NCBI RefSeq assembly: GCF_018736085.1
Contig: NZ_CP076134.1
Coordinates: 558,001-622,000 of the forward strand
From: Bradyrhizobium sediminis
Lineage (GTDB): Bacteria > Pseudomonadota > Alphaproteobacteria > Rhizobiales > Xanthobacteraceae
Length of the DNA stretch: 64,000 nt
Reading direction: 5' to 3'
Every line of letters starts with the position of its first letter. Within the stretch, counting starts at the first letter, position 1. Shown one piece after another: positions 396-16,157 of the stretch. Under the pieces are notes generated by a model. That model saw nothing but the letters and a program-made list of their open reading frames with translations, had not been told where the DNA came from and searched no databases. The translations under genes were made by a program, and so were the position numbers.

Positions 396-1271
396 ATGAC
401 CAAGGCGGTGCTCGGTATCATCGGCGGCTCCGGCATTTATGACCTGCCGGGGCTGGAAAATGCGCACGAGGAGGCGATTTCGAGCCCTTGGGGCGTGCCG
501 TCGGCGCCGGTCCGCCGCGGCTCTATCGCCGGCCTTCCGGTCGTGTTTCTGCCGCGCCATGACAAGGGCCATCGGCTGTCGCCCTCCGACATCAACTACC
601 GCGCCAATATCGATGTGCTGAAGCGCGCCGGGGTCACCGACCTGGTCTCGTTGTCGGCGTGCGGTTCGTTCAGGGAGGACTTGCCGCCCGGCACCTTCGT
701 GCTGGTCGATCAGTTCGTCGACCGCACCCACAAGCGCGAGAGTTCGTTCTTCGGCAAGGGCTGCGTCGCGCATGTCTCGATGGCGCACCCGGTGTCGCCG
801 CGGCTGCGCATCCATCTGGCCGCCGCCGCCGAGGCCGAGGGCATCGCGATCGCGCGCGGCGGCACCTATGTCTGCATGGAGGGACCGCAATTCTCCAGCT
901 ATGCCGAGAGCATGACCTACAAGAACCTGGGCTATTCCGTGATCGGCATGACCAACATGCCGGAGGCCAAGCTCGCCCGCGAGGCGGAGATCTGCTACGC
1001 CACCGTTGCCATGGTGACCGATTTCGATTGCTGGCATCCCGACCATGATGCGGTGTCGGTGCAGGATATCATCCGCGTGCTGTCCACCAACGCCGAGAAG
1101 GCGAAGAGCCTAGTGGCGCGGCTTGCCCGGGAATTCCCCCAGGCGCACGAGCCGTGCCCGATCGGTTCGGACCGCGCGCTCGATACCGCCTTGATCACCG
1201 CTCCGGAAGCGCGCGATCCGGAGCTTCTGAGCAAGCTCGATGCGGTGGCGGGACGGATTTTGCACGCGTGA
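396..1271 (+). CDS. mtnP: S-methyl-5'-thioadenosine phosphorylase
   Basis: This 291-residue protein is a normal-length member of the MTAP/PNP family. It phosphorolyses 5'-methylthioadenosine to adenine and 5-methylthioribose-1-phosphate in the cytoplasm. Visible signatures are the N-terminal GGSGIYDLPGL phosphate loop, FLPRHDKGHRLSPSDINYRA, the DRTHKRESSFF segment, MEGPQFSSYAES and GMTNMPEAKLARE, all typical of MTAP. The ATG at 396 follows a GGAAGAGAG ribosome-binding site. It is the first gene of an operon with mtnA (25-bp gap) and an aldolase/dehydrogenase fusion (17-bp gap), so MTA is processed further by the neighbours. Confidence 0.95.
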   Translation: MTKAVLGIIGGSGIYDLPGLENAHEEAISSPWGVPSAPVRRGSIAGLPVVFLPRHDKGHRLSPSDINYRANIDVLKRAGVTDLVSLSACGSFREDLPPGTFVLVDQFVDRTHKRESSFFGKGCVAHVSMAHPVSPRLRIHLAAAAEAEGIAIARGGTYVCMEGPQFSSYAESMTYKNLGYSVIGMTNMPEAKLAREAEICYATVAMVTDFDCWHPDHDAVSVQDIIRVLSTNAEKAKSLVARLAREFPQAHEPCPIGSDRALDTALITAPEARDPELLSKLDAVAGRILHA

Positions 1272-1296
1272 GACTTGAACCGTCGATGAGTGCGTC

Positions 1297-2406
1297 ATGA
1301 AGGTCGGGGACAGGCACTTCCGAAGCATCTGGCTCGAGCAGGACGGCTGGTCGGTCGGCGCGATCGACCAGCGCCGGCTGCCGCACGATTTTGTCACGGT
1401 CCGGCTGGCAACCTCCGACGCCGCGGCGGATGCGATCCGGTCAATGCTGGTGCGCGGTGCGCCATTGATCGGCGCGACCGCGGCCTACGGGATGGCGCTG
1501 GCGATGCGGGCCGACTCGTCGGATGCCGCGCTCGATCAGGTCTATCAGACGCTAATTGGCACGCGGCCGACGGCGATCAACCTGCGATGGGCGCTCGACG
1601 AGATGCGGCGCCTGTTGCGGCCGTTGCCGCCGCAGCAGCGGACCGAGGCCGCCTACGCGCGCGCGACCGCGATTGCCGAAGAAGACATCGCCATCAACCA
1701 GGGTATCGGCCGGAACGGCCTCGAGCTGATCGAAAAGATCGTCGCCACGAAGCAACAGGGCGAGCGCATCAACGTGCTGACCCATTGCAACGCCGGCTGG
1801 CTGGCGACGGTCGACTGGGGCACCGCGACCGCGCCGATCTATCTGGCGCACGACCGCGGCCACCCCATCCATGTCTGGGTCGACGAGACCCGCCCGCGCA
1901 ATCAGGGCGCCTCGCTGACCGCCTGGGAGCTCGGCCATCACGGCGTGCCGCATACCGTCATCCCCGACAACACCGGCGGGCATCTGATGCAGCATGGCAT
2001 GGTCGATCTCGTGATCGTCGGCACCGACCGCGTCACCGCCGACGGCGACGTCTGCAACAAGATCGGCACCTATCTGAAAGCACTTGCCGCGCATGACAAC
2101 GGCGTGCCGTTCTATGTGGCGCTGCCATCGCCGACCATCGATTTCAGCGTCGCTGACGGGGTCAGGGAGATTCCGATCGAGCAACGCGGCGCCGAGGAAG
2201 TCACGCACATGACGGGGCGGACCGCCGATGGCAGGACCGAGACGGTGCGGATTGTGCCTGACGGTTCGCCGGTTGCGAATTATGGTTTCGATGTCACGCC
2301 GGCGCGGCTGGTGACGGGGCTGATCACCGAGCGCGCGGTGCTGAAGCCCGATCGCGCCGCGCTGGCAGCCGCGTTCCCCGAGCGGACAGCGGCAGCGGCC
2401 GAATAG
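1297..2406 (+). CDS. mtnA: S-methyl-5-thioribose-1-phosphate isomerase
   Basis: The 369-residue product belongs to the eIF2B-like MtnA family and isomerises 5-methylthioribose-1-phosphate to 5-methylthioribulose-1-phosphate. Diagnostic segments are RGAPLIGATAAYGMALA, the catalytic-cysteine region LTHCNAGWLATVDWGTA, VDETRPRNQGASLTAWEL, and the catalytic-aspartate region GTDRVTADGDVCNKIGTY. It lies between mtnP and the aldolase/SDR fusion. No mtnB, mtnC or mtnD genes of the classical methionine salvage route are adjacent, which suggests that its product goes to the fused aldolase downstream. Confidence 0.95.
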   Translation: MKVGDRHFRSIWLEQDGWSVGAIDQRRLPHDFVTVRLATSDAAADAIRSMLVRGAPLIGATAAYGMALAMRADSSDAALDQVYQTLIGTRPTAINLRWALDEMRRLLRPLPPQQRTEAAYARATAIAEEDIAINQGIGRNGLELIEKIVATKQQGERINVLTHCNAGWLATVDWGTATAPIYLAHDRGHPIHVWVDETRPRNQGASLTAWELGHHGVPHTVIPDNTGGHLMQHGMVDLVIVGTDRVTADGDVCNKIGTYLKALAAHDNGVPFYVALPSPTIDFSVADGVREIPIEQRGAEEVTHMTGRTADGRTETVRIVPDGSPVANYGFDVTPARLVTGLITERAVLKPDRAALAAAFPERTAAAAE

Positions 2407-2423
2407 GAGAGGAAAGAAAACGC

Positions 2424-4478
2424 ATGCAGAGCGCCTGGAACGATCGCGACGCCGAAGCGGCGGTGGCCCGCTACGAAAACCTCGGCCGCGACGTGGCGCT
2501 GCGGGTCTATACCACGCGGCTATTGGGCCAGGATCCGCGGCTGGTGCTGCATGGCGGCGGCAATACCTCGGTGAAGACGGAAGTCGCCGATCTCAATGGC
2601 GATGCGGTGGACGTGCTCTGCGTCAAGGGCTCCGGCTGGGACATGGGCTCGATCGAGCCGGCCGGCCTGCCGGCGGTGCGGCTGGCGCCGCTGATCAAGC
2701 TCCGTGCCCGCGAGAAACTTTCCGACGAGGAAATGGTGCGGCTGCAGCGCGCCAATCTGATCGACCCGATGGCGCCGAATCCTTCCGTCGAGGCGCTGCT
2801 GCATGCCTTCATCCCGCACAAATTCGTCGATCATACTCATTCGACCGCGGTGCTGGCGCTCACCGACCAGCCGGACGGTGAGGCGCTGTGCCGTGAAGTC
2901 TACGGCAAGCGCGTCGGCTATGTGCCCTACATCATGCCGGGCTTCGGTCTGGCAAAGGCCGCGGCGGATGTGTTCGCCGCGGACCCTTCGGTCGAGGGCC
3001 TGGTCCTGGTCAAGCACGGCATCTTCAGTTTCGGCGCCGATGCGCGGGAGGCCTATGAGCGCATGATCGCGCTGGTAAGCCTGGCCGAAGCGCGGCTGGC
3101 GAAAAATCGCAAGCCTGCCTTCGTCAGCGCGAAGCTGCCGGCCCGCCCGGCGCCGGTCGCCGCGGTCGCGCCGATCATCCGCGGCGCCTGCAGCCTGCCG
3201 GACGGCAAGGTCGACGGCGCCTGGAAACGCTTCGTGCTCGATTTCCGTGGCGATGCTGCGGTGATGAATTTCGTCAACGGCGCCGACGTGGCGCGCTACG
3301 GCCAGGCCGGCGTGGTGACGCCGGACCACAATATCCGCATCAAGAACAAGCCGCTGGTGGTCGCCGCGCCCGAGGATGGCGATCTAACCGGTTTCAGCAA
3401 CGCGGTCCGCGACGCGGTCGCAGTCTATGGCGAAACCTACAAGGATTATTTTGCCCGCAACAACGCCCGTGTCGGCGGCATCAAGACCATGCTCGATCCC
3501 TCGCCGCGCGTGGTGCTGGTGCCCGGCGTCGGCCTGTTCGGGCTCGGTCGCAGCAAGAAGGACGCGAAGGTCGCCGCCGACCTCGCCGAGGCCGCGATTG
3601 CCACCATCACGGACGCGGAAGCGGTCGGTCGTTTCGAGCCGCTGCCGGAATCTGATCTGTTCGACGTCGAGTACTGGTCGCTGGAGCAGGCCAAACTCGG
3701 CAGCGCCAAGGAGCCGCCGCTCGCCGGGCAGGTCGCCATCATCACCGGCGCGGCCGGCGCGATCGGATTCGCAACCGCCAAGGCGTTTGCGGCGGCCGGC
3801 GCCGAAGTGGCGCTGCTCGATGTCGACGAGGCCGCAGCAAAGGCCAAAGCCAAGGCGATCGGCGGCGCGGCGCTTGGGCTGAAATGCGACGTCACCGATG
3901 CCGCATCGGTGCGCGATGCGTTCGCGCAGGTCGCCGCTGCCTTCGGCGGGGTCGATATCGCCATATCGAATGCCGGCGCCGCCTGGCAGGGCCGGATCGG
4001 CGAGGTCGACGAGGCGGTGCTGCGAAAAAGTTTCGAGCTGAATTTCTACGGCCACCAGCGCGTGGCGCAGGCCGCGGTCAAGATCATGCGGACGCAGGGC
4101 ACCGGCGGCTGCCTGCTGTTCAATGTCTCCAAACAGGCGGTCAATCCCGGCCCCGACTTCGGTCCCTACGGCCTGCCCAAGGCGGCGACGCTCTTTCTGG
4201 TGCGGCAATACGCGGTCGATTACGGCAACGAAGGCATCCGCGCCAACGCCGTCAATGCCGACCGGATCCGTTCCGGGTTGTTGACCGAGGAGATGATCGC
4301 GTCGCGCTCGAAGGTTCGCGGGCTGAGCGAGCAGGCCTATATGCGCGGCAACCTGCTCGGCCGCGAAGTGGAGGCCGAGGATGTCGCGCAGGCGTTCCTG
4401 GCGCAGGCGCTGGCGCTCAAGACCACCGCCGACGTCACCACCGTCGACGGCGGCAACATCGCCGCCGCGCTGCGGTGA
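2424..4478 (+). CDS. fused class II aldolase / short-chain dehydrogenase, probably 5-methylthioribulose-1-P aldolase
   Basis: This 684-residue protein joins two enzymes. Residues about 1-430 are a class II (zinc) aldolase/adducin-type domain with HGGGN (43-47), the zinc ligands H137 and H139 in DHTHS, and H198 in KHGIF. Residues about 435-684 are an SDR domain with the TGAAGAIG Rossmann motif (441-448) and the catalytic pair Y582/K586 in YGLPK. The family is usually named bifunctional rhamnulose-1-P aldolase/lactaldehyde dehydrogenase. Here it is third in an operon with mtnP and mtnA. By inference it cleaves 5-methylthioribulose-1-P to DHAP and methylthioacetaldehyde, and its SDR half then reduces or oxidises the aldehyde. 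The start follows a GGAGAGGAAAG site. Domain calls are firm; the substrate is inferred from context. Confidence 0.85.
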   Translation: MQSAWNDRDAEAAVARYENLGRDVALRVYTTRLLGQDPRLVLHGGGNTSVKTEVADLNGDAVDVLCVKGSGWDMGSIEPAGLPAVRLAPLIKLRAREKLSDEEMVRLQRANLIDPMAPNPSVEALLHAFIPHKFVDHTHSTAVLALTDQPDGEALCREVYGKRVGYVPYIMPGFGLAKAAADVFAADPSVEGLVLVKHGIFSFGADAREAYERMIALVSLAEARLAKNRKPAFVSAKLPARPAPVAAVAPIIRGACSLPDGKVDGAWKRFVLDFRGDAAVMNFVNGADVARYGQAGVVTPDHNIRIKNKPLVVAAPEDGDLTGFSNAVRDAVAVYGETYKDYFARNNARVGGIKTMLDPSPRVVLVPGVGLFGLGRSKKDAKVAADLAEAAIATITDAEAVGRFEPLPESDLFDVEYWSLEQAKLGSAKEPPLAGQVAIITGAAGAIGFATAKAFAAAGAEVALLDVDEAAAKAKAKAIGGAALGLKCDVTDAASVRDAFAQVAAAFGGVDIAISNAGAAWQGRIGEVDEAVLRKSFELNFYGHQRVAQAAVKIMRTQGTGGCLLFNVSKQAVNPGPDFGPYGLPKAATLFLVRQYAVDYGNEGIRANAVNADRIRSGLLTEEMIASRSKVRGLSEQAYMRGNLLGREVEAEDVAQAFLAQALALKTTADVTTVDGGNIAAALR

Positions 4479-4527: not shown

Positions 4528-5160
4528 CTAGCGCAGTGCCAGTCCCGTCGCCGCCTCGAGTTCGGCGATGGCCTGCGGCGCATTGGCGACCTTGATCGTG
4601 GTCATGCCCATGTCGCGCGCCGGCTTCAGGTTGACGCCGAGATCGTCGAGATAGACGCAACGTTTGGGATCGACGCCGAGCGTTTCCACCATCATTTGAT
4701 AGATTCGCGGATCGGGCTTGCGCAGGCCGATCTTGGCGGACTCGATGATGTGATCGAACAGCGCCATCACCTCCGCGACATAAAGCGAGCGGCCGCTGTG
4801 GCTGCCGATCGCGTTGGCGGGAAGGTTGTTGGTGATGCAGCCGGTCTTGAAGCTGGACTTCACCCGCGTCAGCGCCTCGACCATTTCTGGCCGCAGATCG
4901 CCCGACAGCAGCGGCAACACCTCCTTGCCGCGCACCTCCGCGCCGAGCGCCCGCGATTCCGCGGCGAATAGCTGGTCGAAGGTTTCGAGGTCCACCTCGG
5001 CGCGCTCGAACTTCGCCCAGGCATTCTCCCAGTGATTATGGGCGTTGGTGCGCCGGATGATGTCGGCGGGCAGCCCGCGTTCGGTCTCGAACCGCGCGAA
5101 AGCCTCGAACGGCGAAGTGGTGAGCACCCCGCCAAAATCCCAGATTATTGCCTCGATCAT
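4528..5160 (-). CDS. HAD superfamily hydrolase (class IA)
   Basis: The 210-residue product starts at the ATG 5158-5160, preceded by GCGGGAAAAG. The four HAD motifs can be read: motif I WDFGGVL (the nucleophile Asp is present, but the usual second Asp is Gly), motif II ITNN, the motif III lysine in RKPDPRIYQ, and motif IV YLDDLGVNLKPA. A cap region lies between motifs I and II. The DFGG form occurs in epoxide-hydrolase N-domain and haloacid-dehalogenase-like members, so substrate and even phosphatase activity are uncertain. It is convergent with the mtn operon, with 49 bp between the stops. Confidence 0.8.
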   Translation of the reverse strand: MIEAIIWDFGGVLTTSPFEAFARFETERGLPADIIRRTNAHNHWENAWAKFERAEVDLETFDQLFAAESRALGAEVRGKEVLPLLSGDLRPEMVEALTRVKSSFKTGCITNNLPANAIGSHSGRSLYVAEVMALFDHIIESAKIGLRKPDPRIYQMMVETLGVDPKRCVYLDDLGVNLKPARDMGMTTIKVANAPQAIAELEAATGLALR

Positions 5161-5313
5161 CTTTTCCCGCCAATGCGAACGCCGATTTTGCAAGACGGCT
5201 AACACGGCCTCCGGGCAAGGACCAGCCCGCCGGCCTTTTGCCGCTCTGCAGAATTTGGAGTGGCTAGCGCCTTCCTGTAAGTTGCTGCCGCCGTCCCGCC
5301 GCGAGGAAACGCC

Positions 5314-6252
5314 ATGAAAGCCTTTGACACCATCATTACTGAGTCTGCGGGTTTTATCGCCGGGCCGTGGCGGCGGCCGCGCCAGATGCTGCATGCGCAG
5401 GTCTACGATTCCCATGCCTCGATCCACGACGATGCGACCGCGCAGAAACTCGGATTCCAGGGCGGCACCATCGAGGGGCCGACGCATTTCAGCCAGTTTG
5501 CGCCGCTCTGCGTGAGCGTGTGGGGCAATGCCTGGTTCGAGACCGGATGCATCTCCGCGCATTATCGCAATCCCTCCTTCGAGGGCGAGGAGGTGCAGGC
5601 CGTCATGGCAAAGCCGGCCTCGGGTGAGACGCAATGCGCGATCCAGATGGTGAAGCGCGACGGCACCGAAGTGCTGCGCGGCACGGCCTCGGTCGGCGAC
5701 GCCAGGCTGCCCACCGCGCTGGATCAGCGGTTGACCGAGCTGAAGCCGCTCGCCGATCCCGTGATCCTGCGCGACGTCAAGGTCGGCATGAAGACCAAAC
5801 GTCAGACCGTGCGGATGGATGTCGACCAGAACATGGGCGACCTCTATCCATTCTCGCTGGCGGAAAAGCTCAAGCTGATCACCGAGCCGAGCCCGTTTTA
5901 CGCCGGCGCCGGCAATCCCTGGGGCCATCAGATTATTCCGATCGAGATGCTCAGCGTGCTCTTTCAATATAGAGCGAGGGAGGATCGCCTGCCGGTCAGG
6001 GGCCCGGCCGTGGGCCTGTTTGCCGACCAGGAAATCCGGCTGCTGCGGGGCCCGCTGTTCGCCGGCGAGGACTACCAGACCGAGCGGGAAGTCGTCGCCT
6101 TGAGCGGCAGCCGCCGGACCGAGAGTCTCTGGGTGCGGACCACGGTGTTTGCGTCTGGTAATTTGCCGGTCGCCACCATGTTGCTGAACCTCGCCAGCAT
6201 CAAGGATTCCTATTCGCCGTATCAGAAGGAACATAGCGAGCTCTACGCGTGA
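5314..6252 (+). CDS. hotdog-fold (MaoC-like) hypothetical protein
   Basis: This 312-residue cytoplasmic protein has no signal peptide. The segment GGTIEGPTHFSQFAPL (about residues 49-64) and the following HYRNPSFEGEEV resemble the substrate helix and strand of MaoC-type acyl-CoA hydratases. The second half, with FADQEIRLLRGPLFAGEDY, could be a second hotdog repeat. A double-hotdog thioesterase or dehydratase is the best guess, but catalytic residues were not identified with confidence. The ATG at 5314 follows GAGGAAACGCC. The stop lies 11 bp before the likely start of the protease gene, so the two may be co-transcribed. Confidence 0.55.
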   Translation: MKAFDTIITESAGFIAGPWRRPRQMLHAQVYDSHASIHDDATAQKLGFQGGTIEGPTHFSQFAPLCVSVWGNAWFETGCISAHYRNPSFEGEEVQAVMAKPASGETQCAIQMVKRDGTEVLRGTASVGDARLPTALDQRLTELKPLADPVILRDVKVGMKTKRQTVRMDVDQNMGDLYPFSLAEKLKLITEPSPFYAGAGNPWGHQIIPIEMLSVLFQYRAREDRLPVRGPAVGLFADQEIRLLRGPLFAGEDYQTEREVVALSGSRRTESLWVRTTVFASGNLPVATMLLNLASIKDSYSPYQKEHSELYA

Positions 6253-6263
6253 CGCCTGCTGCG

Positions 6264-7025
6264 ATGAAAATCCCGGCCGCGATGATCACAGGCCTGGCGC
6301 TGCTGCTCACCGCGCCGGCTCACGCCATCGTCGGCGGCGGCGCGCCGTCGGCCGAGAGCGTCGGCCGCGCTGTTGTCACCATTGTCGGCTCGCGCGGCAA
6401 TTTTTGTACGGGCACGTTGATTGCACCGAAACTGGTATTGACCGCGGCGCATTGCGTGCAGCCGGGGGCGACCTACAAGATCGTCGACTATGGCGCGGAC
6501 CGGCAGCCGCAACTGCAGGACGTGAAGAATGTCGCCATCCATCCGGCCTTCAGTATGAAGGCGATGAATTCGCATCGCGCTACTGCCGACGTAGCGTTGC
6601 TGCAGCTCGATGCCGCTGCGAAGGGGAAGAGCCCGGCGCTGCTCGGCATCCCGGCTATTCCCATTGTCGTCGGCAGCCGCTTCACCATCGCCGGCATCGG
6701 TGTCGCCGTTCGCGGCGATGGCAAGAGCGGCGGGACCATTCGTGCCGCCGGCCTGGTCGCGACCGGCAAGCCGGGGACGCTGCAAATTCGCCTGGTCGAT
6801 CCAGTCGGGCAGGGCACGCGCGACGGACTTGGCGCCTGCACCGGGGATTCCGGCGGACCGGTGTTCGAGGACAAGCAGGGCGGCCCCGCCATCGTCGGCG
6901 TTGTCAGCTGGTCGACCGGGCCGAACGGCGCCGCGGGCTGCGGCGGCCTCACCGGCGTCACGCCGCTGACGCTCTACCGGGACTGGATTCTGCAGACCGC
7001 GCGCCAATGGGGCTCTGTGCTGTGA
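6264..7025 (+). CDS. secreted trypsin-like serine protease (S1 family)
   Basis: The product is about 253 residues. A signal peptide (MKIPAAMITGLALLLTAPAHA) is followed at once by IVGG, the classical mature N-terminus of trypsin-fold proteases. The catalytic triad is visible as LTAAHC (His), ADVALLQL (Asp) and TGDSGGPVF (Ser). The protein should be exported to the periplasm or outside the cell. A GTG at 6249 would add five residues and overlap the upstream gene; the ATG at 6264 is preferred because it gives a clean signal peptide. The physiological substrate is unknown. Confidence 0.85.
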   Translation: MKIPAAMITGLALLLTAPAHAIVGGGAPSAESVGRAVVTIVGSRGNFCTGTLIAPKLVLTAAHCVQPGATYKIVDYGADRQPQLQDVKNVAIHPAFSMKAMNSHRATADVALLQLDAAAKGKSPALLGIPAIPIVVGSRFTIAGIGVAVRGDGKSGGTIRAAGLVATGKPGTLQIRLVDPVGQGTRDGLGACTGDSGGPVFEDKQGGPAIVGVVSWSTGPNGAAGCGGLTGVTPLTLYRDWILQTARQWGSVL

Positions 7026-7073
7026 ATTCGCCGATTGATCTGGCGCATTGTGCGGCCGATCATTGGTCATTAG

Positions 7074-7202
7074 AGCGTTTTCAAGCGAAGCATGTCCTCG
7101 GACTTGATCCGGGGGTGGATACCGGTTCGTGTGAAGAAAACGCGTCAAAACAAAAAGATGGAGCCCCGTTCCGATTCAATCGGAACGGAAAAGGCTCCAG
7201 AG
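7074..7202. repeat. dispersed repeat, family D (long form)
   Basis: An intergenic repeat upstream of the monooxygenase gene. Its first part (GATACCGGTTCGTGTGAAGA then AACGCGTCAAAACAA) recurs in inverted orientation at 33678-33734. Its second part is a hairpin with arms CCGTTCCGATT/AATCGGAACGG. The arrangement resembles the hairpin at 31503-31531. No coding potential is seen. Confidence 0.6.
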
Positions 7203-7245
7203 GCAAGCTGCTAACGAGTTGCAAATCGGGAGAAGAACGAAAACC

Positions 7246-8757
7246 ATGAATGTAACCGCGCCCCTCCGCACCATGTCCGCCGCGCAGGCGGTCGAGCATT
7301 TCGATGTCCTGATCGTCGGCGCCGGCATTTCCGGCGTCGGCAGCGCCTATCACCTCACCAAGCAGCTTCCGGGCACCAGCTTCGTCGTGCTGGAAGAGCA
7401 GGAAAGTTTTGGCGGCACCTGGCTGACCCACAAATACCCGGGCATCCGCTCCGACAGCGACCTGCACACCTTCGGCTATCGCTTCAAGCCCTGGGTCGGC
7501 CCGCCGATCGCGACCGCCGACGAAATCCGCGCCTATATGAGCGAGGTGATCGACGAGAACGATCTCGCAAGGCACATCCGCTACCGCCATCGCATCAATT
7601 CGGCGAAGTGGTCGAGCGAAACCAATCGGTGGACCGTCGAAGCGGTCGACCAGGCCAGCGGCGAGGCCCGCGCCTTCACCGCGAACTTCCTCTGGATGTG
7701 CCAGGGCTATTACCGTCATTCGGAAGGCTACACTCCGGAATGGCAGGGGATGGCGGACTACAAGGGCCGCATCATCCATCCGCAGCGCTGGCCCGAGGAT
7801 CTGGACCTGTCGGGCAAGAAGGTCGTCGTGATCGGCTCCGGCGCGACCGCGGCGACGCTGATCCCGGCGATTGCGGACAAGTGCGAGCATGTCACCATGC
7901 TGCAGCGTTCGCCGACCTATTTCAGGACCGGCCGCAACGCCATCGAACTGGCCGAACAGCTCCGGCAGTTGCAGGTCAAGGAAGAATGGATCCACGAGAT
8001 CGTGCGCCGCAAGATCCTGTTCGATCAGGATCTGTTTACCCGCCTCTCCTTTACCGAGCCGGAGAAGATCAAGCAGGAACTGCTCAACGGCATTCGCGCC
8101 GCGCTCGGGCCCGGTTCGGACGACATCGTCGAGAAGCATTTCACCCCGAAATACCGGCCGTGGCGGCAACGCATCGCCTTCGTGCCCGACGCCGACCTGT
8201 TCGAGGCGGTCAAGAGCGGCAAGGCTTCGGTGGTGACCGACGAGATCGACCGCTTCACCAAAGACGGCATTCTGCTGAAATCCGGCGAGACGCTGGTCGC
8301 CGACATCATCGTCACCGCGACCGGGTTCAACCTCAATGTGCTCGGCGACATCGCTTTCGAGATCGACGGCAAGCCGCTCGATTTCTCCGACACCGTCACC
8401 TATCGCGGCATGATGTTCACCGGCATCCCGAACATGGCCTGGGTGTTCGGCTATTTCCGCGCCAGCTGGACGCTGCGCACCGATCTGGTGGCGGACTTCG
8501 TCTGCCGGCTGCTGGCGCACATGAAGGAGAAGGGCGCGAAGAAGGTGGTGCCGGCGCTGCGGCCGCAGGAAGGCAACATGCCCTTGCATTCCTGGATCGA
8601 CCCGGAGAATTTCAATCCCGGCTATATGATGCGCAATATGCATCTGTTGCCCAAGCGCGGCGACAAGCCGGAATGGCAGCACAGCCAGGATTACTGGGCC
8701 GAGAAGGATGAAATCCCGGCGATCGATCTCGACGATGCGGCGTTCGTGTACGATTAG
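7246..8757 (+). CDS. flavin-containing monooxygenase (Baeyer-Villiger type)
   Basis: The 503-residue protein is a class B flavoprotein monooxygenase. It shows the FAD-binding GAGISGVGSAYHL, then GGTWLTHKYPGIRSDSD, then YKGRIIHPQRWPED, which fits the F/Y-x-G-x3-H-x3-W-P/D fingerprint of Baeyer-Villiger and N-hydroxylating monooxygenases, and directly after it the NADPH-binding GSGATAATL. It is expected to insert oxygen into ketones or other soft nucleophiles in the cytoplasm using NADPH. The ATG at 7246 follows GGGAGAAG. An acyl-CoA ligase converges on it and two acyl-CoA dehydrogenases follow, which fits catabolism of a ketone or terpenoid, but the substrate is unknown. Confidence 0.85.
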   Translation: MNVTAPLRTMSAAQAVEHFDVLIVGAGISGVGSAYHLTKQLPGTSFVVLEEQESFGGTWLTHKYPGIRSDSDLHTFGYRFKPWVGPPIATADEIRAYMSEVIDENDLARHIRYRHRINSAKWSSETNRWTVEAVDQASGEARAFTANFLWMCQGYYRHSEGYTPEWQGMADYKGRIIHPQRWPEDLDLSGKKVVVIGSGATAATLIPAIADKCEHVTMLQRSPTYFRTGRNAIELAEQLRQLQVKEEWIHEIVRRKILFDQDLFTRLSFTEPEKIKQELLNGIRAALGPGSDDIVEKHFTPKYRPWRQRIAFVPDADLFEAVKSGKASVVTDEIDRFTKDGILLKSGETLVADIIVTATGFNLNVLGDIAFEIDGKPLDFSDTVTYRGMMFTGIPNMAWVFGYFRASWTLRTDLVADFVCRLLAHMKEKGAKKVVPALRPQEGNMPLHSWIDPENFNPGYMMRNMHLLPKRGDKPEWQHSQDYWAEKDEIPAIDLDDAAFVYD

Positions 8758-8940: not shown

Positions 8941-10500
8941 TTACGAGGCTGTGGCCTGATCGGTGACTTTCGCCGCGCCGAAATTCGCGCGCAGGGTCGG
9001 CTTGTGGATCTTGCCGGTGGCGTTGCGCGGCAGCGCGTCGATGAATTTTATCAGGCGCGGGCGCTTGAAGCGCGCCAGGTTGTTCTCGCAATGCGCGTGA
9101 ATTTCCGCTTCGGTGATGCTGTGGCCGGGCTTGACCGCGATGATGGCCATTCCGGTTTCGCCCCATTGCTCGCTCGGGATGCCGATCACGGCGGCTTCGG
9201 CGATCGCGGTGAGCTGATGCAGCACGTTCTCGACCTCGGCCGGATAGACGTTCTCGCCGCCGGAGATGTACATGTCCTTCCAGCGGTCGACGATGTAGTA
9301 GAACCCTTCGTCGTCGATGCGCGCGGCGTCGCCGGTATGCAGCCAGCCGTCGGTGAATGACGAGGCGTTGGCGTCCGGCCGGTTCCAGTAGCCGGGCGTG
9401 ATGTTCGGCCCCTTCACCCATAATTCGCCGAGTTCGCCGACCCCGGCATCCGACCCGTCGGGGCGGACGATCCGCACTTCAGTATGCAGCACCGGCTTGC
9501 CGGAGGAGCCGGCCTTGCGCGCGGCGTCCTCCTTGTCGAGCGTCAATACCGCCGGCGACGTCTCGGTCATGCCGTAGCCCTGCTGCAGCGCGACGCCGCG
9601 CTGTTCCCACACTTTCAACAGCGGCACCGGCATCGGCGCGCCGCCGACGCCGCCGATGATGAGGCGGCTGAAGTCGGACGTCGCGAACGAAGGATGCTGC
9701 GCCATGAACTGGTAGATCGAGGGCACGCCGAAGAACTGGTTGATGCCGCGTGCGGGATCGCTGATCAGCTGCAGCGCTGCGCCGGGATCGAAGGCGCGCA
9801 TGATCAGCACGGTGCCGCCGGCATGCAGCACCGGGTTGGTGTAGCAATTGAGCCCGCCGGTATGGAACAGCGGCAGCACCGTGAGCAGCACCGTCGACGG
9901 CGAGACATAGGCCGGGCCGCCGAGATTGACGCAGTTCCAGAACGTCATGCCGTGGGTGATGATGGCACCCTTGGGCTGGCCGGTGGTGCCCGAGGTGTAC
10001 ATGATGGTCGAGATGTCATCGAGCGTGACGATTTCGCACTGGTCGAGCGGCTCTGCGGCGGCGATCGCCGCCTCGTAGGACCCGTCGGGTCCGAGCAGCA
10101 GTGCGGAGGCCACGTTGCACTTTTTCGCCACCGTCAGCGCGACTTCGGCCAGCTCCGCATCGTGGATCATCAGCACAGGCGCGGCGTCACCGACGATGTA
10201 TTGCAGCTCGGGCACGGTGAGGCGGGTATTCAGCGGCAGGAACACCGCGCCGATCCGCCCACAGGCGAACTGCACCTCCAGCGTATCGGTCGTGTTCAGC
10301 GCCAGCACGGCGACGCGGTCGCCGCGCTTGACCTTCAACCGGTCGCGCAGATGCGCGGCGAGGCGTGAAATCCGGGAATCGAATTGCGCGTAGGTGAAAC
10401 TGCGTCCGCTGCCGAGGTCGACCACCGCCGGCTTGTCCGGCGTGCGGCGGCCGTAATGCGCGATCCAGTCGTAATGGCGAACCGGCAAAGCTTCCTCCAT
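8941..10500 (-). CDS. acyl-CoA synthetase (AMP-dependent ligase)
   Basis: The 519-residue protein belongs to the ANL superfamily. It activates a carboxylic acid to its acyl-CoA through an acyl-adenylate. Visible motifs are the P-loop-like MYTSGTTGQPKGAIITH, the A5 segment GYGMTETSPAV, the A7 segment ELWVKGPNITPGYW with WLHTGDAARIDDEGF, and the C-terminal catalytic lysine region PRNATGKIHK. It is soluble, with no signal peptide. The length matches medium/long-chain or aromatic acyl-CoA ligases; chain specificity cannot be read. It is divergent from the acyl-CoA dehydrogenase gene at 10959, with repeats between them. Confidence 0.9.
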   Translation of the reverse strand: MEEALPVRHYDWIAHYGRRTPDKPAVVDLGSGRSFTYAQFDSRISRLAAHLRDRLKVKRGDRVAVLALNTTDTLEVQFACGRIGAVFLPLNTRLTVPELQYIVGDAAPVLMIHDAELAEVALTVAKKCNVASALLLGPDGSYEAAIAAAEPLDQCEIVTLDDISTIMYTSGTTGQPKGAIITHGMTFWNCVNLGGPAYVSPSTVLLTVLPLFHTGGLNCYTNPVLHAGGTVLIMRAFDPGAALQLISDPARGINQFFGVPSIYQFMAQHPSFATSDFSRLIIGGVGGAPMPVPLLKVWEQRGVALQQGYGMTETSPAVLTLDKEDAARKAGSSGKPVLHTEVRIVRPDGSDAGVGELGELWVKGPNITPGYWNRPDANASSFTDGWLHTGDAARIDDEGFYYIVDRWKDMYISGGENVYPAEVENVLHQLTAIAEAAVIGIPSEQWGETGMAIIAVKPGHSITEAEIHAHCENNLARFKRPRLIKFIDALPRNATGKIHKPTLRANFGAAKVTDQATAS

Positions 10501-10614
10501 GTCCAGCGGTCTGGCGCCGCCTGACCGCTTCGATGATACTCTAGCAGATCAAGGGGATATGGGGATTCTGTCTTGCGCGGAGTAGCTGCGGTAGGGTGCG
10601 ATCATTCATCTCTC

Positions 10615-10735
10615 AGCGTCGTCCCCGCGAACGCGGGGACCCATAATCCCGGTCGTCTGTTGTTGCAGAAGGTATCTCACACCGGGGTCTCACCGATAGG
10701 CCGCGGCGTATGGGTCCCTGCGTTCGCAGGGACGA
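10615..10735. repeat. REP-like composite palindrome, family A
   Basis: Arms CGTCGTCCCCGCGAACGCGG (near 10618) and CCCTGCGTTCGCAGGGACGA (near 10714) flank a spacer that is nearly shared with the copy at 43707. It sits in the 458-bp divergent interval 10501-10958. The rest of that interval holds no gene that I can support. Short open frames through the element translate to VPANAGTH/WVPAFAGTT-like peptides, a common artefact of this repeat type. Confidence 0.75.
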
Positions 10736-10958
10736 CGGAAGAGGACTTTCCAACAAACTACAAACACGGTTTCGCGATCTCGCGGCTCTTGCCGCCCAAA
10801 AACTTCGCCCTCCCCTTGATCCCGGCCACCTGATGCTGCGACGGTTGGCGGCCCGGCAGAAGCGGATGGCGGACTCCGCGGCTCCAGCCACTCGACGCAA
10901 GTTAGAGCAGCCGTTTCCGGACATCGTGCACCGCAACAGAATCAACGGAGGCAAGCGA

Positions 10959-12095
10959 ATGGCCAGTCCATTCTACACCGCCGAACACGAAGCCTATCGC
11001 GACGTGGTGCGCCGCTTTGTCGAGAAGGAAATCGAGCCCTACGCCCATGAATGGGACGAGGCCGGCGAGTTTCCCCGCGAGCTCTATGCGAAGGCCTCGG
11101 CGATCGGCCTCTTGGGTCTTGGATTCCCGGAAGAATATGGCGGTGTCGACGCCGACCAGTTCATGAAGATCGTGGCCTCGCAGGAGCTGGCCCGGGCTGG
11201 CGCCGGCGGGGTCAATGCGAGCTTGATGAGCCACACCATCGGCTCGCCGCCGATCGCGCGCGCCGCCCGTCCCGAAATCAAGGCGCGGGTGCTGCCGCAG
11301 GTGCTGTCGGGCCAGAAAATCTCCGCGCTCGCGATCACCGAACCGAGCGGCGGATCCGACGTCGCCAATCTCAGGACCAAGGCGCGCCGCGACGGTGACC
11401 ATTACGTCGTCAGCGGCGAAAAGACCTTCATTACCTCCGGCATGCGCGCCGACTATCTGACGGTAGCGGTGCGCACCGGCGGCGAGGGCCCGGGCGGCGT
11501 CAGCCTGCTCTTGATCGAGGGCGATACGCCGGGCCTGTCGCGCACCAGGCTGAAGAAGATGGGCTGGTGGGCGTCGGACACCGCGACGCTACATTTCGAC
11601 GATTGCCGCGTGCCGGCCGAGAACCTGATCGGCGAGGAAGGCCAGGGCTTCAAGCTCATCATGCAGAATTTCAACAGCGAGCGCATGGGCATGGCGGCGA
11701 GCTGCACGGCCTATGCCCGCGTCTGCGTCGAGGAGGCGATTGCCTATGCCAAGGAGCGCCAGACGTTCGGCAAGCCGATCGCCCAGCACCAGGTGATCCG
11801 CCACAAGCTGGTGGACATGGCGCAGAAGGTCGCGGCGTCGCAAGCGATGCTGGAAATGCTGGCGTGGCGTCTCGGGCAGGGCGAAAGCCCGGTTGCCGAG
11901 ATCTGCATGATGAAGAACCAGGCGACCCAGACCATGGCGTTCTGCGCTTCCGAAGCGGTGCAGATTTTCGGCGGCGCCGGCTTCATGCGCGGCATCAAGG
12001 TCGAGCGCATCTACCGCGAGGTCAAGGTCAACGCCATCGGCGGCGGCACCGAGGAGATCATGAAGGATCTGGCCTCAAGGCAGATGGGATTGTGA
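10959..12095 (+). CDS. acyl-CoA dehydrogenase
   Basis: The 378-residue flavoenzyme oxidises an acyl-CoA to a trans-2-enoyl-CoA and passes electrons to ETF. Hallmarks are the FAD-site segments ALAITEPSGGSDVANLRT and SGEKTFITSG, the QTFGKPIAQHQVIRHKLVDM helix, and the C-terminal IYREVKVNAIGGGTEEIMKD loop. The ATG at 10959 is set by a GGAGG site (10947-10951); upstream in-frame codons lack one. A second acyl-CoA dehydrogenase gene follows after a strong hairpin and a repeat, so the pair may act on successive or branched substrates. Confidence 0.9.
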   Translation: MASPFYTAEHEAYRDVVRRFVEKEIEPYAHEWDEAGEFPRELYAKASAIGLLGLGFPEEYGGVDADQFMKIVASQELARAGAGGVNASLMSHTIGSPPIARAARPEIKARVLPQVLSGQKISALAITEPSGGSDVANLRTKARRDGDHYVVSGEKTFITSGMRADYLTVAVRTGGEGPGGVSLLLIEGDTPGLSRTRLKKMGWWASDTATLHFDDCRVPAENLIGEEGQGFKLIMQNFNSERMGMAASCTAYARVCVEEAIAYAKERQTFGKPIAQHQVIRHKLVDMAQKVAASQAMLEMLAWRLGQGESPVAEICMMKNQATQTMAFCASEAVQIFGGAGFMRGIKVERIYREVKVNAIGGGTEEIMKDLASRQMGL

Positions 12096-12103
12096 GCGAT
12101 TAG

Positions 12104-12144
12104 CTCCCCTCCCTCCACGCGCGTTGCGCGTGGAGGGAGGGGAG
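12104..12144 (+). terminator. perfect 19-bp hairpin after acyl-CoA dehydrogenase stop
   Basis: Eight bases after the stop codon lies a perfect inverted repeat, arm CTCCCCTCCCTCCACGCGC, three-base loop GTT, and the exact complement. It could act as a transcription terminator or as an mRNA-stabilising structure. No T-tract follows the right arm, so it is not a canonical intrinsic terminator. Confidence 0.55.
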
Positions 12145-12188
12145 CAGAACGAAGCGGGCGAGCCCGGAATGACGCGCAACAAGAGTGC

Positions 12189-12288
12189 CGTCATTCCGGG
12201 GCGCGCGTCAGCGCGAACCCGGAATCTGGAGATAAGTAAAGCAACATCGAGATTCCAGGTTCGACGCTCCGCGTCGCCCCGGAATGAC
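12189..12288. repeat. palindromic repeat, family C
   Basis: An inverted repeat bounded by CGTCATTCCGGGGCGCGCG and its counterpart CGCCCCGGAATGAC. Inner arms carry GAACCCGGAATCT and AGATTCCAGGTTCG. Related copies are at 21382-21464 and 49648-49741. The right end contains an ATG (12284) that is in frame with the next gene but belongs to the repeat. Confidence 0.75.
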
Positions 12289-12298
12289 AGGAGAAAAA

Positions 12299-13456
12299 AT
12301 GCTCTTCACCGCAGACCACGAAGAACCCCGCCGCATCCTGCAAAAATTCATCGCGGCCGAGATCAATCCCTACGTCGACGAATGGGAGAAGGCGGAACAG
12401 TTCCCCTCGCATGAGCTGTTCAAGAAGCTCGGCAATCTCGGCTTTCTCGGCCTCAACAAGCCCACCGAATTCGGCGGCCAGGGGCTCGATTACAGCTATG
12501 CGCTGATGATGGCGGAAGAGCTCGGCGCGATCCATTGCGGCGGCGTGCCGATGGCGATCGGGGTGCAGACCGACATGGCCACCCCGGCGCTGGCGCGGTT
12601 CGGCTCGGACGAAGTACGGCGCGAATTCCTGGCGCCGGCGATTTCAGGTGACGCGGTCGCCTGTATCGGCGTGTCGGAGCCGGGCGCCGGCTCGGACGTG
12701 GCGTCGATCAAGACCAGCGCGCGTTCCGACGGCGACGATTACGTCATCAATGGCGGCAAGATGTGGATCACCAACGGCGTCAAGGCCGACTGGATCTGCC
12801 TGCTCGCCAATACCGGCGACGGGCCGGTCCATCGCAACAAGTCGCTGATCTGCGTGCCGATGAAGAGCAAGGGCGTCGAGGTCGCGCGCAAGCTCGACAA
12901 GATGGGCATGCGCTCGTCCGACACCGCGCAGATCTTCTTCGACAATGTGCGGGTGCCGAAGCGCAACCGCATCGGCGAGGAAGGCAAGGGCTTCACCTAC
13001 CAGATGATCCAGTTCCAGGAGGAGCGGCTGTGGGGCGCCGCCGCCTGTCTCAAGGCGCATGAAACCATTATCAACGAGACCATCGAATACACCCGCAACC
13101 GCAAGGCGTTCGGCCAGAGCATCCTCGATAACCAGACCGTCCACTTCAAGCTGGCGGAAATGCAGACCGAGATCGAGCTGTTGCGCGCGCTGATCTACCG
13201 CGCCGGCGAAGCGCTGGTCGCGGGCGAGGACGTGACGCGGCTCGCGACCATGGCGAAACTGAAGGCCGGCCGGCTCGGGCGCGAACTCACCGACGCCTGC
13301 CTGCAGTTCTGGGGCGGCATGGGCTTCATGAACGAGACGCCGGTCAGCCGCGCCTATCGCGACAGCCGCCTGACCTCGATCGGCGGCGGCGCCGACGAGG
13401 TGATGCTGTCGGTGCTGTGCAAGATGATGGGCACGCTGCCGGGAATGAAGCCGTAA
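12299..13456 (+). CDS. acyl-CoA dehydrogenase, second copy
   Basis: The 385-residue protein is an FAD-dependent acyl-CoA dehydrogenase distinct in sequence from its upstream neighbour. Motifs are CIGVSEPGAGSDVASIKT, NGGKMWITNG, KAFGQSILDNQTVHFKLAEM and the C-terminal YRDSRLTSIGGGADEVM. The GGGADEVM ending also occurs in citronellyl-CoA dehydrogenase-like (AtuD) enzymes, so a branched or terpenoid acyl-CoA is possible, but this is only a suggestion. The start at 12299 has AGGAGA nine bases upstream; the ATG at 12284 lies inside a repeat and is rejected. Confidence 0.9.
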   Translation: MLFTADHEEPRRILQKFIAAEINPYVDEWEKAEQFPSHELFKKLGNLGFLGLNKPTEFGGQGLDYSYALMMAEELGAIHCGGVPMAIGVQTDMATPALARFGSDEVRREFLAPAISGDAVACIGVSEPGAGSDVASIKTSARSDGDDYVINGGKMWITNGVKADWICLLANTGDGPVHRNKSLICVPMKSKGVEVARKLDKMGMRSSDTAQIFFDNVRVPKRNRIGEEGKGFTYQMIQFQEERLWGAAACLKAHETIINETIEYTRNRKAFGQSILDNQTVHFKLAEMQTEIELLRALIYRAGEALVAGEDVTRLATMAKLKAGRLGRELTDACLQFWGGMGFMNETPVSRAYRDSRLTSIGGGADEVMLSVLCKMMGTLPGMKP

Positions 13457-13479
13457 GGCGGAGGGATTGATGCCCCAAC

Positions 13480-13512
13480 GTCATTGCGAGGAGCGATAGC
13501 GACGAAGCAATT
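13480..13512. repeat. half copy of palindromic repeat, family B
   Basis: The sequence CGTCATTGCGAGGAGCGATA followed by GCGACGAAGCAATTC matches one arm of the family B palindrome that is complete at 39117, 43537 and 47934. The opposite arm is missing here. It lies between the dehydrogenase stop and the esterase pseudogene. Confidence 0.6.
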
Positions 13513-13566
13513 CGACTTTCCTGTTTGCCCGCAAGCTGATAGCATGCCGTTCAACGGGAGCGTCCC

Positions 13567-14990
13567 ATGGTCGTTGCAGCGTTGCGCCGGACTTCCGTCG
13601 CGATTGGCTGCGCGGCGTTTATCGCCGGACCGGCGCTGGCCCAAGCGCCCGCGGCGCTCCCCGGCTACAATGCCGCCATCGGTGAAAGCTCGATATCCGG
13701 CATTTCCTCCGGCGCGTTCATGGCTGTCCAGTTCGCCACCGCCTGGTCTTCGGTGATCAAGGGCGTCGGCGTGGTCGCCGGCGGGCCGTATTGGTGCGCG
13801 AAAGCCGGCGGGTTCTTCAGCTACTGGTCTTCCATTACCAACGCGACAGGCCCATGCCTGTCCGGGCCGCCTCCCGGAATGAGCAGCTTCTTCGCCAAGG
13901 CCGACGCCAAGTCGGCTTCCGGCGCGATCGACTCGCTGCAGTTCGTGCGGCGCAGAAAATTTATCTGTTCCATGGCTATAACGACAAAGTGGTGGCACGA
14001 TCGGTCGCCGATGCGGCTGCGGATTTCTATCGCCACTCTCGGCGAGGCCAATCGCGGCAACCTCTACTACCAGACCACGATCGGAGCCGGGCATTCGCTG
14101 GTGGTTGCGCAGGATCCGCCCCGCGCCGACCTCAATGAATGCAAGGCGAGTATCAGTCCGTTCATCGATCAATGCGGCTATGACCAGGCCGGAATCATTC
14201 TCCAGCACATTTACGGCGCGTTGAGTAGCCGAATGCCGGTCCGTTGAGCGGGACGATCAGGCCGTTCGATCAGTCGCTTTACACCAAACCCGGCAGCGCG
14301 GGTTCGTTGAGCCTGGGCAAGACCGGCTACGTGTTCGTGCCCAGGGAATGCGAGAATGGCGAGGCGTGCCGCGTCCATATCGCCTTGCACGGTTGCAACC
14401 AGCAAGAAGGCCCCGAAATCGGACGCGTTTCGTCGAGCGCACCGGATACAATGCCTGGGCAGATACCAATCGTCTGATCGTGCTCTATCCGCAAACCACT
14501 GCGAAATGGTACCCTACAATCCCCACGCTTGCTGGGACTGGTGGGTTACGTCAATTACGACGACAGTTATGTCACCAAGTCCGGGGCGCAGGTCAGGACG
14601 ATCAAGGCGATGCTCGACGCGTTGACCGCGCGCGCCGCGCCGGCGGCCGTTTCCTCGCCGGCGCCCCGCCGCGACATCGATCATGCTCAGGGTCATCGAC
14701 CGGTCGGACACCGGCGCCGATCTGGCATGGGCTCCGCAGGCTGGCGCGACAGCCTACCGCGTGTTCCGTGCCGGCGCCGACGGCCCGTTTGCAGCGGTGG
14801 CGGAGGTGGCCGGGCCGAGTTTCGCCGATTCCGGCCTGACGCCAAAAACCGCCTATCGATGGCGCGTCGCGGCGATCGTGAACGGGGTTGAAGGCCCGGC
14901 TTCGGGTGAAGCCGCGGCTACGACGCGACCGGTTCCCGCCACCCTGCGCCATACCCGGCGCTTGCCCGATTGGCGAATGATGAATGGGCG
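13567..14990 (+). pseudogene. PHB depolymerase-like secreted esterase, frameshifted
   Basis: The reading starts with a signal peptide (MVVAALRRTSVAIGCAAFIA...ALAQA). The nucleophile-elbow region SISGISSGAFMAVQF follows, as in the PHB-depolymerase esterase family, then KIYLFHGYNDKVV, VHIALHGCNQQ, RTGYNAWADTNRLIVLYPQT and NPHACWDWW, and near the end a fibronectin type III-like segment (AYRVFRAGADGPF...TAYRWRVAAI). These pieces lie in at least three frames. Switches fall near 13950, 14035, 14215, 14430 and 14500-14650. All conserved blocks are present and in order, so the gene is probably intact in the organism and damaged by indel errors here. The 3' end is approximate. Confidence 0.65.
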
Positions 14991-15077
14991 CAGACTGCTA
15001 ATTCTGCATGCTGCCGGGTTTTTGATGGCAGCATGCATCAGCTCATAAGAGTGCTATATTTATTTATCAGGAGTTCC

Positions 15078-16157
15078 ATGTCGAGGTCTGGCCAACAGGT
15101 AAGATTCTGCAAGTCTCGTGACGGCGCCCAGATCGCGATGGCTTCGATCGGCCGCGGACCGCCATTGCTGCGAACCGCCCACTGGCTCAGCCACGTCGAG
15201 CACGACGCGCGAAGCCCGGTCTGGACGCACTGGCTTGAGGAGCTGTCGCGCGACCACACCTATATTCGATATGACCAGCGCGGCTGCGGATTGTCCGACC
15301 GCTCGCCGCCGTCCACCTCTTTCGAGGCATGGATCGAGGACCTGGAGGCCGTCGTCGAGGCGCAAGGCTTGAAAAAATTTCCGCTGTTTGGGATGTCCCA
15401 GGGTGGCGCAATCGCAATTGCATACGGCCGCTCGGCATCCGGAGAGGGTGTCACATCTTGATCCTGTTCGGCGCCTATGCCAGGGGCATGCTGCGCCGGA
15501 ATGTAACGGAGCAAGAGCGCGAGGAGGCCGAGACCCTCATCAAGCTCATCCGGCTTGGTTGGGGACGCGACAAACCGGCGTTTCGGCAAGTTTTCACATC
15601 GCAGTTTATTCCGGACGGGACCCGCGAGCAGCACCAGTGGTTCAACGATCTGGAGAGCATCTCGGCATCGCCGGAGAACGCGGTAGCAATTGTCGAGCAG
15701 TTGTATCAGGTCGACGTCAGTGCGGAAGCGGCAAGCCTGCGTGTCCCGACATTGGTGATGCATTCGCGAAAATGACGCGCGGGTTCCCTTCGAACAGGGG
15801 CGGCAACTGGCGGCGCTCATCCCGTCGGCCCGTTTCGTTCCGCTGGAAGGGCGCAACCATGTCTTGCTCCCCAGTGAACCTGCATGGGAACAGTTTCTCG
15901 ATGAGTTCCGCTCGTTCCTGGGCGGCGCCGGCGGCACTTCGCCGGCCTTGCGCCAGGCCGGCCTGACGGCGAGTGAGCACGCCGTTCTGACGTTGATGGC
16001 GCGAGGCCTCGACAATACGGCGATTGCCACAGCGCTGACCAAGAGCGAGAAGACCGTCCGCAATCAGGTTTCGAGCATTTTTGCCAAGCTGGGAGTCCGC
16101 ACACGGTCCCAGGCCATCGTGCTTGCCAGAGATGCAGGCATTGGCGAGGCGTCATAG
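15078..16157 (+). pseudogene. alpha/beta hydrolase fused to LuxR-type HTH, frameshifted
   Basis: About 360 codons. The N-terminal two thirds is an alpha/beta hydrolase: DGAQIAMASIGRGPPLL, the oxyanion region, IRYDQRGCGLSDRS, and the nucleophile elbow GMSQGGAIAIAY. The C-terminus is a LuxR/GerE helix-turn-helix: LTASEHAVLTLMARGLDNTAIATAL with KTVRNQVSSIFAKLG. Such fusions are regulators in which a hydrolase-like domain may sense a ligand. The frame changes twice near 15430-15470 and again near 15768; GRHPERVSHLILFGAYARG is recovered only if extra bases are removed. The ATG at 15078 follows CAGGAG. Confidence 0.7.

Follow-up and report, generated by a model that had tools for sequence, protein, structure and literature searches.

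Here we examine a 64,000-nucleotide stretch of Bradyrhizobium sediminis DNA (contig NZ_CP076134.1, positions 558,001 to 622,000; hereafter the window), in which mtnP and mtnA are followed by a gene encoding a class II aldolase fused to a short-chain dehydrogenase/reductase (SDR). The three genes lie on one strand, with 25 bases between mtnP and mtnA and 17 bases between mtnA and the fusion gene (Table 1), and both the open reading frame (ORF) coordinates and the curated family scores bear out the tight arrangement described in the original prediction. The fusion belongs to NF006192, which NCBIfam names 'bifunctional aldolase/short-chain dehydrogenase' (models PRK08324.1-6), and its closest counterparts among named loci (91% and 88% identical, from Bradyrhizobium metagenome-assembled genomes) stand in the same mtnP-mtnA-fusion order. 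The seven window proteins scanned with Pfam agree with the earlier statement that mtnB, mtnC and mtnD are not nearby; furthermore, a HAD protein encoded directly downstream on the opposite strand (4531-5205) passes TIGR02247, and the MtnC model is not among the 17 NCBIfam families that it matched. An Rfam search upstream of and across the operon (9000-16000 of locus L005) gave no match. Judged from sequence and gene context, the fusion is probably the last enzyme of a variant of the dihydroxyacetone phosphate (DHAP) shunt, serving 5'-methylthioadenosine (MTA) and/or 5'-deoxyadenosine.

Table 1. Features of the mtnP-mtnA-fusion operon, in window coordinates
Feature	Position	Strand	Details
mtnP, S-methyl-5'-thioadenosine phosphorylase	396..1271	+	291 aa; NF006492 539.6 bits (cut-off 437), TIGR01694 292.1 (cut-off 274.85)
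mtnA, 5-methylthioribose-1-phosphate isomerase	1297..2406	+	369 aa; TIGR00512 413.5 bits (cut-off 279)
Ribosome-binding-site-like purine run	2405..2413	+	overlaps mtnA end, 10 bases 5' of fusion ATG; read from sequence
Class II aldolase/SDR fusion	2424..4478	+	684 aa; NF006192 1075.8 bits (cut-off 639), residues 1-684 of 684
Fusion, proposed 5-methylthioribulose-1-P / 5-deoxyribulose-1-P aldolase and aldehyde dehydrogenase or reductase	2424..4478	+	predicted
Class II aldolase domain, residues 29-224	2508..3095	+	PF00596 (Pfam)
Conserved middle region, residues 225-435	3096..3728	+	no Pfam match; conserved in alignment
SDR domain, residues 436-684	3729..4475	+	PF00106/PF13561 (Pfam); N540, S569, Y582, K586, D466 conserved

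Association of the fusion with mtnA and mtnP

Across 289 alphaproteobacterial genomes, NF006192 scored over its cut-off in 50 and MtnA in 126, to which one genome with a partial match (G200) was added for a set of 127 mtnA genomes. Half of the fusion genes (25/50) lie on the same strand as mtnA and within 1 kb of it, 23 of them across gaps of at most 155 bases, and three more lie within 2.5 kb (28/50). All 22 remaining fusions were examined, and five adjoin mtnP on the same strand (G184, G044 and G128 at loci L041, L046 and L050; G007 and G099 at L214 and L217), bringing those linked to mtnA or mtnP to 33/50. Because the arrangement recurs in many alphaproteobacterial genomes, the linkage of mtnP, mtnA and fusion is not a product of chance; the pairing with mtnA that the original prediction singled out is thus recurrent, but it is not universal. 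Presence of the genes irrespective of position tells the same way: mtnA was found in 46 of the 50 fusion genomes (45 with scores over cut-off and one with a partial match) versus 81 of the 239 others (Fisher p 1.2e-14, uncorrected for kinship). In the 119 genomes of the window's own family, counted by hand and then checked by script on typed handles, the fusion is over cut-off in 37, and mtnA is present in 36 of these versus 23 of the other 82 (p 1.05e-13).

At least 52 of the 127 mtnA genomes encode a single-domain class II aldolase no more than 1 kb from mtnA and on its strand. This count is a lower bound, since these rows were chosen by eye among the matches listed, and among those rows there is no overlap with the 50 fusion genomes. 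Within the family, aldolases at least 45% identical to the Ald2 of a congener occur in 10/119 genomes and in none of the 37 with the fusion; in two of these 37 (G305, G325) the matches are 31-33% identical. All four congeners in the family survey (G312, G352, G374, G393) carry mtnP-mtnA (loci L194-L197) and an Ald2-like aldolase and have no fusion, the reverse of the window genome; one of them (G352) holds a 442.6-bit homologue, and two further congeners in a survey of the phylum likewise have no fusion. Ald2 has apparently been replaced by the fusion in fusion genomes. The 59 family genomes with mtnA comprise 36 with the fusion, five with an Ald2-like aldolase and 18 with neither, so other routes must exist. 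In another member of the family (G344:C1:3547418-3549341) the fusion match is in pieces with an internal stop, likely a decayed copy, and mtnA is intact elsewhere.

Among named genomes, the best 80 of 591 relatives were retrieved as loci. The fetched DNA holds mtnP, mtnA or mtnK in 38 of the 80; among the 48 loci whose flanks extend the full 6 kb, the number is 27. These loci also reveal a second arrangement, in which a SorC/DeoR-type regulator with a sugar-binding domain, the fusion and a ribose-type ABC transporter accompany mtnK-mtnA. The combination of fusion, regulator, transporter and mtnK occurs at 16 loci, including Mesorhizobium, Nitratireductor, Rhizobium setariae, Devosia, Chelativorans and Aquamicrobium (a profile match, TIGR01767 513.5 bits, identifies mtnK in L142, and tblastn does so at the other loci); mtnA is visible in eight of the 16, and in six others the mtnK ORF reaches the end of the fetched DNA. 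Eight mtnA-bearing named loci additionally contain a phosphoribosyltransferase gene, whose product could recycle adenine.

Fate of the MtnA product and conserved residues of the fusion

The genome of the window is a single contig of 5,554,208 bases, 99.94% complete, on which the window is C1:558001-622000. MtnD (PF03079) gave no match genome-wide at E 1e-3 in a search that does match in Bacillus subtilis, and no protein passed the MtnB model (best 55.2 bits vs a cut-off of 137.05). Canonical methionine salvage through MtnBCD elsewhere in the genome is therefore rejected, MtnC not having been searched genome-wide, and the intact mtnBCD set that the original prediction had named as a possible refutation did not turn up. 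The MTA-isoprenoid shunt is likewise rejected, as the sole RuBisCO match (308 aa scanned) passes the true large-subunit model NF003252. Four Aldolase_II matches were found in the genome, the fusion and three others, of which one passes 3-oxo-tetronate-4-phosphate decarboxylase, one passes a generic aldolase II subfamily and one is under the cut-offs shown; these assignments lead us to reject another class II aldolase as the sink. Searching with the Ald2 of a congener returned no similar protein at E 1e-20. None of the other fates of 5-methylthioribulose-1-phosphate (1-P) that were searched for is encoded, which leaves the fusion as the one sink found for the MtnA product.

H137, H139, H198 and E123 are invariant in alignments, and by analogy with FucA-type aldolases we take the three histidines to be metal ligands and E123 to be the acid/base. 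Comparison of 50 rows of the fusion clade, near-identical ones included, with seven rhamnose-linked rows (L053 left out as a long branch) places Glu at position 123 in 50/50 of the former and Asp in 7/7 of the latter, and Asn at position 540 of the SDR domain in 50/50 versus Leu in 7/7; common to both sets are His137, His139, His198, Tyr582, Lys586 and Asp466. The SDR domain carries an Asn-Ser-Tyr-Lys set (N540, S569, Y582, K586); the roles that we assume for these residues, and for D466 at the presumed end of strand beta-2 (cofactor choice), follow general SDR rules, and D466 so placed suggests use of NAD(H). In mtnA-linked single-domain aldolases the residue aligned with Glu123 is the Glu of a PSSEW motif; one of these aldolases scores 209.5 bits with FucA and 136.6 bits with PDB 6btd, which we take to be DrdA. 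The fusion itself falls outside this single-domain, FucA-like class of Ald2 and DrdA, being fused and matching a FucA chain through its N-terminal domain with an E of only 0.31. E123 may correspond to Glu76 of DrdA, the displaced metal ligand that has been proposed as its acid/base (PMC6079011). Among solved chains, PDB 3m4r scores highest with the N-terminal domain (161.5 bits); it is a stand-alone class II aldolase domain of 222 residues that keeps the PSVE motif, has no SDR in the solved chain and is listed without an assigned function. In the middle region, a GVGLFGLG-type motif resembles HGIFSFG of the aldolase domain, which hints weakly at an ancient duplication (hhalign probability 9.8).

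Proposed pathway and competing explanations

In the pathway that we propose, MtnP would cleave MTA (and 5'-deoxyadenosine) to adenine and 5-methylthioribose-1-P (5-deoxyribose-1-P), which MtnA would isomerise to the corresponding ribulose-1-P. The N-terminal aldolase of the fusion would then split the ribulose-1-P into DHAP and 2-(methylthio)acetaldehyde (or acetaldehyde), and the C-terminal NAD(H)-type SDR would remove the aldehyde, either as the acid, on the precedent of RhaW, or as the alcohol, on that of Rhodopseudomonas palustris. The equilibrium of such an aldol cleavage (constant ~10^-4; PMC6079011) favours condensation, so that removal of the aldehyde within the same protein would pull the cleavage. 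Indeed, the rhamnose enzyme RhaEW forms no DHAP without NAD+, oxidises lactaldehyde with NAD+ and is inactive when given NADH (PMC3870299). We lean slightly towards oxidation by the SDR, to methylthioacetate or acetate, because of this precedent and Asp466; reduction is favoured by the full classical SDR set with Asn540 and by the detection of 2-(methylthio)ethanol in R. palustris (PMC5893883). Substrate, products, redox direction and any pulling or channelling are what we infer for the fusion. That a single polypeptide performs both aldol cleavage and aldehyde redox, as first suggested for this window, finds comparative support in the operon linkage, the co-occurrence with mtnA, the linkage to mtnK-mtnA, the apparent replacement of Ald2, the metabolic hole in the genome and the separation from the rhamnose clade.

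Among the closest known systems is the DHAP shunt of Rhodospirillum rubrum, R. palustris and some Escherichia coli, comprising MtnP or MtnN plus MtnK, MtnA, Ald2 (single-domain) and a putative alcohol dehydrogenase. The window shares with it MtnP and MtnA, a class II aldolase that would release DHAP and an aldehyde, and a predicted redox step thereafter; mtnP and mtnA stand with an aldolase gene whose presumed metal and acid/base residues are conserved. The window aldolase differs in coming from another class II branch and in being fused to an SDR, Ald2 being a separate protein (PMC5893883).

Several observations weigh against this assignment. Seventeen of the 50 fusions in the class lie beside neither mtnA nor mtnP, mtnA has no match in three fusion genomes (G030, 99% complete; G112; G286) and is a 59-bit piece in G099, and MtnB and MtnD are both over cut-off in five of the 50 (G033, G078, G099, G162, G260); G112 also has MtnD, and G122 and G184 show short PF03079 matches (31.6 and 33.9 bits vs a cut-off of 27). 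In the phylum survey the fusion is over cut-off in 13/299 genomes, 12 of them alphaproteobacterial. In the window's family 30/37 fusions are not within 2.5 kb of mtnA (mtnP not examined there) and seven are, so that co-occurrence, not synteny, carries the argument in this family. Furthermore, 20 mtnA regions from the 23 family genomes with mtnA and no fusion over cut-off contain no fusion, and 11 of them keep mtnP within 0.5 kb; mtnPA is thus retained without the fusion, which is not needed for its persistence. The literature that we searched, which lacked most subscription journals, offers no enzyme assay for any NF006192 member and no paper linking an aldolase/SDR fusion to MTA or 5-deoxyribose. 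To our knowledge, the only characterised relatives are RhaEW, whose substrate is L-rhamnulose-1-P; we take the C4 configuration of that compound to be opposite to that of the MtnA product, and an acceptor-site change relative to RhaEW is therefore expected. The 3R,4R configuration is presumably that of L-fuculose-1-P and not of L-rhamnulose-1-P. The same 3R,4R configuration has been inferred for 5-deoxyribulose-1-P (PMC6079011).

It is natural to ask whether the protein is simply such a rhamnose enzyme (RhaEW, L-rhamnulose-1-P aldolase/lactaldehyde dehydrogenase) that lies beside mtnA by accident. The two proteins are alike in length, have their domains in the same order and are homologous almost throughout, other sources call close relatives RhaD or rhamnulose-1-P aldolase/alcohol dehydrogenase, and RhaEW is biochemically characterised (PMC3870299). 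We reject this identity, and judge the explanation very unlikely, because the fusion stays under the cut-off of the RhaEW model TIGR02632 (498 vs 567.75 bits) and the genome has no rhizobial rhamnose isomerase TIGR02629 (RhaA-type isomerases were not searched separately). Glu at 123 and Asn at 540 further distinguish it from RhaEW, as do its mtn, not rha, neighbours. By tblastn, rhaI is found at none of the 80 named fusion loci; it adjoins 7 of 10 tested weaker homologues. There are 11 such homologues in the 289 genomes (407-465 bits), none of them near mtnA, and the one neighbour tested for each of ten was an L-rhamnose isomerase in seven cases, PRK02399 in two and without a match at E 1e-20 in one; the seven isomerases have TIGR02629 as best family, six over cut-off and one at 629.9 vs 646.75 bits. 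Two weak homologues from outside the class (L189, L190) adjoin rhaI too. A quick tree puts the mtn-linked rows on one side of a branch with an SH-aLRT support of 99 and the rhamnose-linked rows on the other. In all eight genomes listed for the genus g273 in the phylum survey, an NF006192 fusion of more than 1,100 bits accompanies a 421-444-bit homologue, and the two proteins therefore coexist. The original prediction had also warned of a rhamnose misannotation; such a label does exist in other sources for a protein that fails TIGR02632, but the NCBIfam name is already neutral.

A narrower explanation, overlapping with ours, is that the fusion mainly handles 5-deoxyribulose-1-P, from 5'-deoxyadenosine or 5-deoxyribose of radical SAM or external origin, with MTA a minor substrate or none. 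The mtnK-mtnA loci of Mesorhizobium and relatives, with their ribose-type ABC importer and sugar-type regulator, suggest uptake of a free sugar and follow the kinase-isomerase-aldolase logic of the Drd pathway of Bacillus thuringiensis (DrdK, DrdI, DrdA). In that organism DrdA acts on 5-deoxyribulose-1-P and the kinase takes both 5-deoxyribose and 5-methylthioribose; DrdA is a homologue of fuculose-1-P aldolase, unlike the fusion, and the available part of the report describes no fused dehydrogenase (PMC6079011). Shunt-bearing E. coli strains, moreover, grow using 5'-deoxynucleosides (PMC10986504). The first gene of the window, however, passes MTA phosphorylase models, not a kinase model, and both substrates are reported to be used by Ald2 of E. 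coli (PMC10986504). We regard an enzyme mainly for the deoxy sugar as possible rather than probable. For MTA as the substrate, proposed at the outset, the context is supportive, but 5'-deoxyadenosine/5-deoxyribose is as likely. It is doubtful that the fusion belongs instead to the pathway of some other ketose-1-phosphate, its main role being that of the unlinked copies and the mtn linkage secondary. This would account for the 17 copies away from mtnA and mtnP, for the diversity of the scanned neighbours of unlinked copies and for the pairing of the fusion with a TauD-family gene in Reyranellaceae-type loci. Against it stand the near-constant presence of mtnA in fusion genomes (46/50 in the class, 36/37 in the family), the scatter of unlinked copies among linked ones in the quick tree, and the neighbours that were clustered and scanned, among which only the Reyranellaceae-type set recurs beside unlinked copies.

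Neighbouring genes, related fusions and significance

Beyond the fusion, the window continues (4531-8757) with the HAD hydrolase gene and genes for a 312-aa protein that matches no Pfam family, a trypsin-like protein and a flavin monooxygenase. Three of these genes (HAD, 312-aa and monooxygenase) keep the same order at locus L086, farther from the fusion, and were not found at L087; for this reason they probably lie outside the operon.

Other fusions of this architecture were met along the way. A third aldolase/SDR group from other Pseudomonadota (L174-L188) scores 485-590 bits to NF006192, with one at 450. Its 15 fetched loci, flanks included, hold no mtnA, mtnP, mtnK or rhaI, and one (L175) has a phosphoribosyltransferase match; six of the 15 share a large protein (many Helicase-associated domains in the two tested) and five share a 334-aa-type protein (a DeoC/LacD aldolase in the one tested). 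Fusions of ~650 aa also lie beside a PRK02399 protein at L076 (5177-7117) and L081 (4977-6887), in genomes (G194, G287) that carry an mtn-linked fusion as well.

At 11 of the 80 named loci, from Reyranella, Enhydrobacter and related bacteria, the fetched DNA contains a TauD-family dioxygenase gene together with the fusion. In L132 (8085-10229) and L042 (5498-7401) the TauD-family gene is directly beside the fusion and an aldo/keto reductase gene is nearby; L132 also has a gene for a zinc alcohol dehydrogenase just upstream. The dioxygenase is a candidate for releasing sulfur from a methylthio acid. It is conceivable, if rather unlikely, that a third form of the DHAP shunt is widespread in Alphaproteobacteria. 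In it, a self-pulling aldolase-dehydrogenase would convert the MtnA product directly to DHAP and methylthioacetate (or acetate) and, in Reyranellaceae-type loci, the adjoining TauD-family enzyme would cut methylthioacetate to glyoxylate and methanethiol. If true, this cut would fill the missing sulfur-release step.

S-adenosylmethionine chemistry produces MTA and 5'-deoxyadenosine as waste almost universally. The R. palustris paper calls the dehydrogenase of the DHAP shunt only 'putative' (PMC5893883). If our assignment of the fusion to the shunt is true, it would name this dehydrogenase for many Alphaproteobacteria, among them Mesorhizobium and some Bradyrhizobium, and correct the rhamnose label on a large subfamily. 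It would also present a single protein whose own redox domain pulls an unfavourable aldol cleavage.

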